Assembly: GCA_035532035.1 (NCBI GenBank)
Contig: DATKRS010000010.1
Location: 1-64,000, forward strand
Reading direction: 5' to 3'
Origin: Candidatus Dormiibacterota bacterium
Lineage (GTDB): Bacteria > Vulcanimicrobiota > Vulcanimicrobiia > Vulcanimicrobiales > Vulcanimicrobiaceae
DNA: 64,000 nt
In this document: positions 34,006 through 39,191 of the stretch, piece after piece
Layout: each line of letters opens with the position of its first letter
How positions within the stretch are numbered: the first letter of the stretch is position 1
Position numbers and translations under genes: made by a program
Notes under the pieces: model-generated
Told to the model about the DNA's origin: nothing
Database searches by the model: none
The model's input: only the letters and a program-made list of their open reading frames with translations

Positions 34006-34089
34006 GCGCAAGTGGCGGAATTGGTAGACGCACTAGCTTGAGGGGCTAGCGCCCGCAAGGGCGTGCTGGTTCGAGTCCAGTCTTGCGCA
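34006..34089 (+). tRNA. tRNA-Leu (GAG)
   Basis: The cloverleaf folds cleanly: acceptor GCGCAAG/CTTGCGC, anticodon stem CTAGC/GCTAG around TTGAGGG with anticodon GAG, a long variable arm CGCCCGCAAGGGCG typical of class II tRNAs, and the T-loop TTCGAGT. It is 84 nt and CCA is not encoded. It reads CTC and CTT. No integrated element sits next to it. Confidence 0.96.
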
Positions 34090-34150: not shown

Positions 34151-37100
34151 GTGTGGTTAACCCGATTCGCAATCTCACGCTGGGTCATCACGACCGTGAT
34201 TTTCGCCACGCTGGCGATCTTCGGGGTCGTGTCCTTCATGTTGCTCGGCCGCAGCTCGAACCCACCGAACACGGAGTTCCCGGTCGTCGCCGTCGTTGCC
34301 AGCTACCCCGGTGCGTCGCCACAAGACATGGAGCGCATGGTCATCAAGCCGATCGAGGATCAGATGAACGGCATCGAGCACCTCGACCAGCTGAGCGCCA
34401 CGGCACAGGAAGGCACTGCGGTCGTCGTCGTGCAGTTCACCGTGGGAACGAACCTGGATCTCGCCTCCGTCGACGTGCAGCGCCGCGTCGACACGGCGCG
34501 CGTCTACATGCCCAGCGACATGAATCCGCCGACCGTCACGAAGGCGGGGCAGTCCGAGCCGCCGCTGCTCGACCTCGCCGTGAGCTCGAAATCTCTGACG
34601 CAGCCGCAAATCGCCGACCTCATCAACACGCAGGTAACGCCCCTCATCGAGCAAGACCCCGACGTCCAGTCGGTCGACGTCTACGGCGCGGCGAGTCGTG
34701 AGTTCCACGTCGAACCCGACCCGACGAAGCTGGACGGCACGAACGCGACGCTCGAAGATATCCTCAACGCGGTCGCGAGCAACAACCTGAACGTACCGGG
34801 CGGCATCATGACGCAGCCGACGCGCGAGGGCACGGTCGCGATTCATTCGTACATCAATCAAGCAAGCGACTTGCTCGGCATACCGCTCTCGCCGTCCACC
34901 GTGTTGCGCTACCCCGTGAAGGCACTCAAGCTTGGCGATGTCGCGAACGCGTACGATAGTCACGTCGAAATGCGCAACATCTCCTCGTTCAACGGTCAGC
35001 CGCGCGTCTACGTTGGCGTCAATCCGACGCTGGACGCGGATCAAATCAAGGCGACCCAGCGTCTGCGCGCCCTCCTCACGAAGATCGAAGCGCAGTTCCC
35101 GCAGCTGCACTTCAACGAGATCGACGCTCCGGCGGACTACACCGCGAAGATGCTGACCGGGGTCGGCCAGTCCCTGATCGAGGGCATCGTGCTGACAGCT
35201 ATCGTCATGCTGCTGTTCCTCCATGCATGGCGTAATGCGGTCGTGGTGTTCCTTGCGATCCCCACCTCGATTCTCTCGACGTTCATTCTGATGAAGCTCG
35301 CCGGCTTCCACATCGATTCGATGTCCATGATGGGGCTTTCGCTCATCATCGGAATACTCGTCGACGACTCCATCGTCGTGCTGGAAAACATCACGCGACA
35401 TCGAGACATGGGTGAAGACGCGACGACGGCCGCGATCAACGGGCGTACGGAAATCGGTGGCGCGGCAGTCGCTATTACCATGGTGGACGTCATCGTCTTC
35501 CTACCGATCGCCTTCATCTCGGGCATCGTCGGCGCCTATCTGCGCGAGTACGCCATCGTGGTCGTGACGGCGACACTCTTCTCGCTCCTGGTCTCGTTCA
35601 CGCTCACACCGCTGCTCGCGGCGAGGTGGAGCGTCGTCAAGCGCTCGGAGGCGACGCCGCGCTGGCTGCTCGCGCTCGACGACCGGCGCATCGACTTGGT
35701 TCTGCTCCTGCTGGCCGCCGGAATGTTTGCGGTCGGAACGTTCACGGGTTGGTTCGTACTCAACGCGATCGGGATATTCGTCTTCGCATTGCTCCTGCTC
35801 AATGCGTTCGTGCATCGCTACGATCGCATCGTGAGCGCGTATCACACGCGATTCCTTCCGTTTGCCTTACTTCACGGGCCGTTGGTGGCCTTCGTGTGCA
35901 GCGTCCTCTTGCTCAACGCGTTTACGCTGCTTGCCGGCGGCGGGTTCGTCACGGTTGCCGTCGACGCGCTCCTGATCGGCGCGTGCGCAATCGCGCACGG
36001 CATAGGCGCATACCTGCGCCGGTCGTTCCCCACGCCGCACCTTGGTGCGTGGTACCTCGCGCCGCTACGCTTCGTCCGCAGCCTCGGCACGGCAAGCAAG
36101 CGCGTCACGCTCGCCACGTTCGCCATTCCCATTGCCGCCGGATTGATCATGTTGCCGCTTGGCCGGGTGAGCTTCAGCCCGTTCCCGGCGCAGCAGACCG
36201 GCGAGATGGCGATGACCGTCACCTACCCTCCCGGCACCCCGATCGCGACGACGAACCGGTACGTGACGCAGCTCGAAGAGGCGATCATGCGCCTCGACGG
36301 CGTCAAGTCGGTGAGCGCGACGGTCGGACGCAAACAGGCAGGGTGGAGCAGCTTTACCGGCGGGAACTACGCGCAGCTCTCGGCAGCGATGCAAGACGAT
36401 CGCATCAAAGACACCAACGCGACCATCGCCAAGATCCGCCGGCTGGCCTATCTCGTGCCCGGCGGCGTTTTGGCCGTCGCGGGCGATAGCGGTAACGGCG
36501 GATCGGACCTGCAGTACTCGATCACCGGCCCCGACGCGGCGATCGGCCCCGCGGCCGAGAAGATTGCCACGTTCATTCGCTCGCTTCCGGGAACCGTGAA
36601 CGTGCAGACGAGCGCCGAGACGGGGGCGCCGCGCTTGAACGTCGACGTCGATCGCTCGAAGTGTGAAATTCTCGGCGTCAATCCGTCCGACGTCGCACAG
36701 GTCGCGCGCATCGCCGTCGACGGTGCCGTCGCGACGCGCGTGCGCACGGCGACGGGCCTCGTGGACGTGCGCGTTCAGTTCCCGCTTGCAGATCGCACGA
36801 CCGTCGCGGAGCTGAGGAACGTTAAAGTGCGCACGAACGACGGCTCGCTGATACCGATCGGAGACGTCGCGAGCTTCACGTGGACGCTGGCGCCGACGAA
36901 GATCGAGCGTTTGAATCGCCAGCGCGTCGTCAACGTCTACGGAGACTTGCTGCCCGGATATTCGCTTGGCCAAGTCGAGGGGCCGTTGCAGAAGGAGCTG
37001 CAGATGCCTGGCTTCCTTCCCGTCGGCGTCGGGCTGGTATCGCAAGGAAACTCGCAACTGATGGACGAGGCGTTCTTCAACATGTTCATCGCGCTGGTTG

Positions 37101-37639
37101 CGTCCTTTGCGCTCGTCTACGTGCTCATGGTGATCCTCTACGGCTCGTTCCTCGAGCCGCTGATCGTGATGTTCTCCGTGCCGCTCGCCATCATCGGCGC
37201 GCTCATGCTCCTCGCGCTGATGGCGCGGCTCGAGCCGCAGCAGGGGCAGTCGCTGAACATCATCTCGGTGCTCGGGGTCATCATGCTCTTCGGCTTGGTT
37301 GCCAAGAACGGCATCCTGCTCGTCGATTACTCGAACACCATGCGCAGGCGCGGCTTGCGCGTGCGTGACGCGGTACTGCAGGCGGCATCCGTTCGCTTCC
37401 GGCCGATCATCATGACGACGGCAGCGATGATCTTCGGCATGCTGCCGTTGGCGCTCGGTTACGCCGAGGGCGGCGAGTGGCGCCAAGCGATCGGGACGGT
37501 GATCATTGGCGGCCTTCTCAGCAGCCTCGTCCTCACGCTCTTCCTCGTGCCGATGATCTACAATACCTGGATGGGCGCGCTCGAACGGCGCGCGGACCGG
37601 CACGCGCTCGTCGCGGAGATGGAACCGGTCCGAACGTAA
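34151..37639 (+). CDS. RND efflux transporter with extra membrane helices
   Basis: An 1162-residue HAE1/AcrB-type proton-driven pump. TM1 is followed by a porter domain (SYPGASPQDMERMV), TM4 carries the proton-relay Asp pair (GILVDDSIVVLENI), and the second porter domain and C-terminal helix set (NMFIALVASFALVYVLMV, GLVAKNGILLVDY) are normal. Between TM6 (about 470-490) and TM7 (about 648-665) lie some 150 extra residues with four hydrophobic segments in two hairpins, where AcrB has only a short cytoplasmic helix. No adaptor (MFP) or outer-membrane gene is adjacent. GTG 34151 start. Confidence 0.92.
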   Translation: MWLTRFAISRWVITTVIFATLAIFGVVSFMLLGRSSNPPNTEFPVVAVVASYPGASPQDMERMVIKPIEDQMNGIEHLDQLSATAQEGTAVVVVQFTVGTNLDLASVDVQRRVDTARVYMPSDMNPPTVTKAGQSEPPLLDLAVSSKSLTQPQIADLINTQVTPLIEQDPDVQSVDVYGAASREFHVEPDPTKLDGTNATLEDILNAVASNNLNVPGGIMTQPTREGTVAIHSYINQASDLLGIPLSPSTVLRYPVKALKLGDVANAYDSHVEMRNISSFNGQPRVYVGVNPTLDADQIKATQRLRALLTKIEAQFPQLHFNEIDAPADYTAKMLTGVGQSLIEGIVLTAIVMLLFLHAWRNAVVVFLAIPTSILSTFILMKLAGFHIDSMSMMGLSLIIGILVDDSIVVLENITRHRDMGEDATTAAINGRTEIGGAAVAITMVDVIVFLPIAFISGIVGAYLREYAIVVVTATLFSLLVSFTLTPLLAARWSVVKRSEATPRWLLALDDRRIDLVLLLLAAGMFAVGTFTGWFVLNAIGIFVFALLLLNAFVHRYDRIVSAYHTRFLPFALLHGPLVAFVCSVLLLNAFTLLAGGGFVTVAVDALLIGACAIAHGIGAYLRRSFPTPHLGAWYLAPLRFVRSLGTASKRVTLATFAIPIAAGLIMLPLGRVSFSPFPAQQTGEMAMTVTYPPGTPIATTNRYVTQLEEAIMRLDGVKSVSATVGRKQAGWSSFTGGNYAQLSAAMQDDRIKDTNATIAKIRRLAYLVPGGVLAVAGDSGNGGSDLQYSITGPDAAIGPAAEKIATFIRSLPGTVNVQTSAETGAPRLNVDVDRSKCEILGVNPSDVAQVARIAVDGAVATRVRTATGLVDVRVQFPLADRTTVAELRNVKVRTNDGSLIPIGDVASFTWTLAPTKIERLNRQRVVNVYGDLLPGYSLGQVEGPLQKELQMPGFLPVGVGLVSQGNSQLMDEAFFNMFIALVASFALVYVLMVILYGSFLEPLIVMFSVPLAIIGALMLLALMARLEPQQGQSLNIISVLGVIMLFGLVAKNGILLVDYSNTMRRRGLRVRDAVLQAASVRFRPIIMTTAAMIFGMLPLALGYAEGGEWRQAIGTVIIGGLLSSLVLTLFLVPMIYNTWMGALERRADRHALVAEMEPVRT

Positions 37640-38314
37640 CCAACGGCCAAGGAACCAAAGAAAGAAGCGGACCGCGTCTTCGTACCGCTTCGCGGCGTCT
37701 TCGAGCGTCTCGGTGCATCCGTGGATTACTCTGCCTCTACGATTCTCGCGAACCGTGGAGATACGACGGTCGCCCTTTACATCGGCTCGAACGTCGGGTA
37801 CGTGAACGGATACGAGGTGCAGCTCGACGTGGCGCCGTTCATCATTGGCAGTCGCACCCTCGTCCCGCTGCGCTTCATCTCCGAGTCGCTCGGGGCAGTC
37901 GTAGACTGGAACCAGGAGCAGCAAACCGTCTACGTCGGCCTGACGACACCGATGGCGCCCGCGCCGCAGAGCAGGCCGCCTGAGTATCCGCAAGCCTGGC
38001 CGCCTCCCAGCGGCTGGTTGCAACGCTACGGACCTCCGCCGCAAGGCTGGCACGGCGAAGGAGGTGGCTACCGCAATCCAGGGTCCGGCCGGTATCCGCG
38101 CCAGACGCCCACGCCGTATCGTCCGCGTCCGCGGCCGTATCCGACGTTTCGTCCACCGCACCCGATCGTGACGCCGACGCCGACGCGCATCTACACGCCG
38201 CGGCCGTATCCGACGTTTCGTCCACCGCGTCAGCTACCGACGGTTCGCCCGCGTCCGATACCGTACAGAACCATTCCGCCGCGGCTGCGCCCTACCCCAA
38301 CGCCGACACCATAA
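37640..38314 (+). pseudogene. Copper-amine-oxidase-type stalk domain, N-terminus lost
   Basis: The frame directly follows the RND stop codon and stays open to 38314, but no ATG/GTG/TTG occurs before GTG 37721. Conserved stalk-domain sequence begins earlier: ADRVFVPLRGVFERLGASVDY spans 37672-37734, so the first part of the domain and any signal peptide are missing. The second half (GSRTLVPLRFISESLGAVVDWN) is intact. A 110-residue Pro/Arg tail (TPTPYRPRPRPYPTFRPP) follows. The next gene is a complete paralogue. Either deletion fused the tail to the pump's 3' end, or the domain is made by readthrough of the RND stop. Confidence 0.7.
38129..38228 (+). repeat. 31-nt direct repeat in Pro-rich tail
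   Basis: An identical 31-bp segment occurs at 38129-38159 and 38198-38228, separated by 38 bp; the period is 69 nt, exactly 23 codons. Both copies encode the peptide RPYPTFRPP in the same frame, so the repeat probably arose by tandem duplication within the low-complexity tail. Confidence 0.9.
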
Positions 38315-38375
38315 TCGCAGGCGAGCGGGCGGTGGTTGATTAGCTGTGCGGCCGGCGGGGAAGAAAGAGGGAGTG

Positions 38376-39191
38376 ATGAGACGATTATCGATACTTTTTC
38401 TCGCCCTTGCGGCCGCTGGCGCCGCATCTTTCGGCTTGGCGAGCGCTCAACAGCAGTTCACCGTCATGGTGAACGGGAGCCCGATGAGTTTTCCGGATCA
38501 GGCGCCGGTCGAGCGCGCCGGCCGGCTCTACGTTCCGATGCGCGCGATCTTCGAGCGCCTCGGCGCAATGGTCGTGTACAATAACGGGACGATCAACGCC
38601 ACAGGCGGCGGGCGGACGATTCAACTCCAGATCGGATCGTCGTATGCTACCGTCGGCGGGCAGCAGGTACAGCTCGATTCACCGCCGTTCGAGATCGGAG
38701 CTCGTACGCTCGTCCCGCTGCGTTTCGTCTCGCAGGCGCTCGGCGATCGCGTTTCGTGGGATCAGAGCCGCCTGACCGCCTATATCATGGGCAACGGCGG
38801 TTCCTCTGGAAATGGCTATGGGAACGGCTATGGGAACGGGGGTCCCAACGGTCAAGTACCGCCCTATCGGCCGGGAAGCTCCTACCAGCGTCCAGGTCCG
38901 GCGTGGGCCGACGCGGGCCATTCGCTCGTGCATCGCCCGTCTCCGTGGGGACAGACGTCGCGCCCCTATCCGCTGATCAACGCGTCGTTCCGCACCCCCG
39001 TGCTTCCTGGTAGCGTGCGCGTCATGCTCGACGGGCGCAACGTGACGGGGATTGCCAGGATCACGCCGCGCGGCTTCGAGTTTACCCCAGCCTTCCCGCT
39101 TCGCGCAGGAGAGCACGTCGTACGCATCTTTGCCAGGACGCAGGACGGCGTACCCGTCTCCGACAGTTGGAGTTTCACGGTCGTAGCGTAG
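38376..39191 (+). CDS. Copper amine oxidase N-terminal (stalk) domain protein
   Basis: A 271-residue exported protein. Signal peptide (LSILFLALAAAGAASFGLASA), then a complete stalk domain with its two VPxR motifs: GRLYVPMRAIFERLGAMVVY and GARTLVPLRFVSQALGDRVSWD. A Gly/Asn/Tyr linker (GNGYGNGYGNGG) leads to a C-terminal immunoglobulin-like domain (PVLPGSVRVMLDGRNVTG, PLRAGEHVVRIFARTQDG). Such proteins are cell-surface or periplasmic; no copper site is conserved in the stalk domain despite its name. ATG 38376 follows GAAAGAGGGAG. The truncated paralogue lies 62 nt upstream. Confidence 0.88.
   Translation: MRRLSILFLALAAAGAASFGLASAQQQFTVMVNGSPMSFPDQAPVERAGRLYVPMRAIFERLGAMVVYNNGTINATGGGRTIQLQIGSSYATVGGQQVQLDSPPFEIGARTLVPLRFVSQALGDRVSWDQSRLTAYIMGNGGSSGNGYGNGYGNGGPNGQVPPYRPGSSYQRPGPAWADAGHSLVHRPSPWGQTSRPYPLINASFRTPVLPGSVRVMLDGRNVTGIARITPRGFEFTPAFPLRAGEHVVRIFARTQDGVPVSDSWSFTVVA

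Follow-up and report, generated by a model that had tools for sequence, protein, structure and literature searches.

The open reading frame that continues past the stop codon of an RND efflux pump gene in the window (the whole 64,000-nt stretch of DNA analyzed) is probably a deletion scar, in which loss of a 5′ end inactivated one of two tandem genes for stalk-domain proteins. In the proposed ancestral arrangement, two distinct genes downstream of the pump, A and B, would each have encoded a secreted stalk-domain protein. Loss of about 176 nt would then have removed the end of the spacer along with the start codon, signal peptide, and first domain strand of gene A, leaving an orphan 3′ fragment of gene A in the pump's frame by a one-in-three chance and gene B intact. 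The pump gene, the gene A fragment, and gene B lie on the + strand.

Following the TAA codon of the pump gene (37637–37639), the same frame remains open for 224 sense codons (37640–38311) and closes with a TAA at 38312–38314, in keeping with the 225 open codons originally predicted when the stop is counted. Stalk-domain sequence (RVFVPLRGVFERLGA) begins at codon 12, past 11 codons that include no ATG, GTG, or TTG, so that the domain does precede any start codon, as had been noted from the sequence. The first in-frame start is a GTG at 37721, already inside the domain, and the stretch from the pump stop to 37713 is free of ATG, GTG, and TTG in every frame. The domain was identified as PF07833 (Cu_amine_oxidN1; E=3.3e-30), with a Pro-rich tail behind it. 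The segment at 37665–38314 is accordingly annotated as a 5′-truncated stalk gene A and probable pseudogene, preceded by a spacer remnant (37640–37664) that aligns with the DNA directly after the pump stop in the closest relative. As compared to secreted proteins with this domain (“copper amine oxidase N-terminal” or stalk domain), the gene A fragment is a convincing family member, its match of 104.7 bits standing against a gathering cut-off of 24.2, and its Pro-rich C-terminal tail is the same as in gene A of two relatives, G001 and G004. Unlike those secreted proteins, it has no start codon or signal peptide ahead of the domain and lacks profile positions 1–11, the match covering only positions 12–108 of 108, as compared to 2–108 for G001 gene A. 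Since it has neither start nor export signal, the fragment most likely yields no functional secreted protein, and gene A is probably inactive. Counting against a deletion or pseudogene reading, the fragment contains no additional stop or frameshift, and decay thus has no separate sign.

The window genome (G000) is a 2.25-Mb assembly of 38 contigs, 96% complete, from a genus represented by seven other genomes. The closest of these, G004, encodes an RND protein 94% identical to that of the window and shares its layout except for 176 additional nt past the RND stop, which code for a start codon, signal peptide, and first domain strand (MKRSRETLRRLCGLAAVVALSGIVSAPSSAQSTIAVVVNGEQVQFVQPPIEQ). In that genome, a spacer separates the TAA of the RND gene from an ATG-initiated gene encoding MKRSRETLRRLCGLAAVVALSGIVSAPSSAQSTIAVVVNGEQVQFVQPPIEQADRVFVPLRGVFERLGA... 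A point against the deletion reading is that G004 gene A is covered solely by two pieces at contig edges in a draft assembly, with about 3× coverage on one contig. Alignment of the two genomes is clean on either side of a 176-nt gap in the window at 37664/37665, ±3 nt, and the deletion junction is placed at 37664–37667 with a breakpoint ambiguous by 0–3 nt. A complete, separate gene A of 321 amino acids, with a signal peptide and full domain, is present in G001. When G000 was searched for the missing 176-nt segment, no copy was found elsewhere; matches were confined to its two flanks and the domain of a paralog, and relocation of the segment within the genome was rejected. In line with truncation by deletion, the orthologs found at this locus have intact 5′ ends, and G000 does not contain the missing piece. 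The sequence comparison thus establishes a deletion relative to G004 and G001, and a separate-gene state in all relatives. Comparison of the junction in sister genomes had been proposed with the original prediction, and its deletion-scar option gains strong support from G004 and G001, whose stalk gene at this position comes with a start and signal peptide of its own. Only gene B lies directly behind the pump in G003, G006, and G007, which are among the genus members readable at this position, so that gene A seems dispensable in the genus. Also counting against the deletion reading, the frame of G004 gene A is broken in the second of its two pieces, where a C run differs in length by 1 nt (L052:60–110, at the start of contig C77 and near the contig edge); a sequencing error, given the low coverage of that assembly, is one possible cause.

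Of 99 genomes of the family that were searched, 54 contain the pump ortholog; downstream DNA was readable for 39 orthologs other than that of the window, and a stalk gene was counted if it lay within 1.5 kb. A stalk-domain gene follows the pump in 25 of these 39. All 25 genes have 48–89 residues before the domain motif, which include one or more start codons and a hydrophobic stretch resembling a signal peptide, whereas the window has 11 residues and neither element. The pump stop is TAA in 12 of these relatives, TAG in 10, and TGA in three. Stalk gene and pump share a frame in 11 of the 25, and in five of these the frame stays open throughout from the RND stop. The frame relation of stalk gene and pump among relatives is essentially random, and with 11 of 25 sharing the pump's frame, the in-frame position in the window amounts to a roughly one-in-three coincidence. 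No pump–stalk fusion was present among the 54 orthologs, in which the longest RND open reading frame is 1225 amino acids.

The pump gene itself (34151–37639) is complete, with a GTG start, and encodes an RND efflux transporter (ACR_tran, HAE1-like) of 1162 amino acids. In a Pfam profile search, ACR_tran matched with E=3.8e-209 and spanned both halves of the protein, consistent with an RND efflux permease. Like HAE1-type multidrug efflux permeases (AcrB/MdtB/MexB), the window protein has two halves, both of which align with MdtB (up to chain residue 1020 of 1040), but it differs in carrying an insert of ∼120–150 residues between the halves, with four extra hydrophobic segments, that is kept in this family; it scores under the NCBIfam cut-offs for named subfamilies. 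The insert corresponds to about 35645–36107 (residues 500–650); of 149 genomes from the phylum, 62 showed it, with all of the matches listed belonging to this Eremiobacterota family. A tRNA-Leu (GAG) gene at 34006–34089 separates the RND gene from an ABC dipeptide permease gene.

Programmed or conditional readthrough of the TAA, which would extend the RND pump by a stalk and Pro-rich tail, was the other option originally raised, and the long open frame past the stop is the observation in its favor. The family survey makes this very improbable, as the 25 relatives have separate stalk genes with their own starts and signal-peptide-like N termini, the pump stop varies, neither spacing nor frame is conserved, and none of the 54 orthologs is fused. 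Neither a conserved stop context nor a conserved open frame, as would be expected of programmed readthrough, was found across relatives. Membrane topology argues in the same direction. RND exporters have six transmembrane helices per half (12-TM), with large domains in the periplasm (PMC4403515). Based on this architecture, on an even number of hydrophobic segments in the window protein (16 instead of 12, namely 12 that match the standard plan and four in the insert), and on alignment with MdtB to near its end, the C terminus of the pump is predicted to be cytoplasmic. A tail added by readthrough would thus be placed in the cytoplasm, the wrong side of the membrane, where it could not act as an extracytoplasmic stalk, contrary to the suggestion that the pump gains an extracytoplasmic tail. 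A readthrough fusion was rejected on conservation, lack of fused orthologs, and membrane topology. An equally improbable alternative is that a nonstandard or internal start, such as the in-frame GTG at 37721, still directs translation of truncated gene A into a cytoplasmic protein that has taken on a new role. The low dN/dS of the surviving domain could be taken to favor such a product, but is attributable to constraint before the deletion; initiation at 37721 would cut deeper into the domain and yield no signal peptide, and potential starts are missing in all frames from the RND stop to 37713. Taken together, it is highly doubtful that either readthrough or nonstandard initiation generates a low-level pump–stalk fusion or cytoplasmic stalk protein specific to this species.

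Another explanation, less likely than a genuine deletion though far more plausible than readthrough, is that gene A of the organism is intact and that the 176 nt were dropped in draft assembly or on merging of strains. Consistent with such an artifact, G000 is a draft, the frame of the surviving part of gene A is undamaged, and this part is constrained like an intact gene. Over 82 codons, the surviving domain differs from that of G004 by 24 synonymous and 14 nonsynonymous changes (dN/dS of about 0.16); the corresponding ratios are 0.06 (pump) and 0.18 (gene B). The predominance of synonymous changes indicates that most of the divergence from G004 arose while gene A was functional, and therefore that the deletion is either recent or an assembly error. 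Against the latter, the junction is well within a 107-kb contig, and the regions around both breakpoints in G004 share no run of 8 or more bases; repeat collapse is thus not an obvious cause, and repeat-mediated collapse was rejected on this ground. We infer that the deletion occurred in the organism, and not merely in the assembly, and the substitution pattern suggests that it was recent. A 5′ deletion (or assembly gap) affecting one member of a tandem paralog pair is a routine event that matters little in itself, but it serves as a caution that an open frame past a stop can be a deletion scar.

Gene B (38376–39191) encodes a signal peptide, a Cu_amine_oxidN1 domain covering profile positions 2–108, and a C-terminal part with a weak, sub-threshold Ig/CopC-like match; no sequence match to this intact stalk gene was found in the PDB. 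In a domain tree, window A is sister to G004 A (98/87), G001 A joins them next (100/99), and gene B belongs to a separate clade, so that A and B are distinct paralogs. The earlier description of gene B as an intact duplicate of the domain thus stands insofar as the gene is complete and has a signal peptide, while the domain is only paralogous and from a different clade of the family. The gene B ortholog of G001 (L050:9230–9652) lacks the stalk domain and retains the signal peptide together with an Ig/CopC-like C-terminal region; that of G002 (behind the RND gene of L039) shows the same pattern and, in addition, a further frame disruption.

A by-product of the survey, more interesting than the scar itself, is the conserved pairing of the pump with a secreted stalk gene. 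A literature search returned nothing useful on the PF07833 domain next to RND pumps. The stalk protein may act with the pump as its partner in the periplasm or at the surface. The pair of RND pump and adjoining secreted PF07833 gene (34151–39191 in the window) is conserved in this Eremiobacterota family, in the 25 of 39 relatives given above (L036–L038, L040, L041, L058–L060, L062–L070, L078, L081–L083, L089, and L091–L093).
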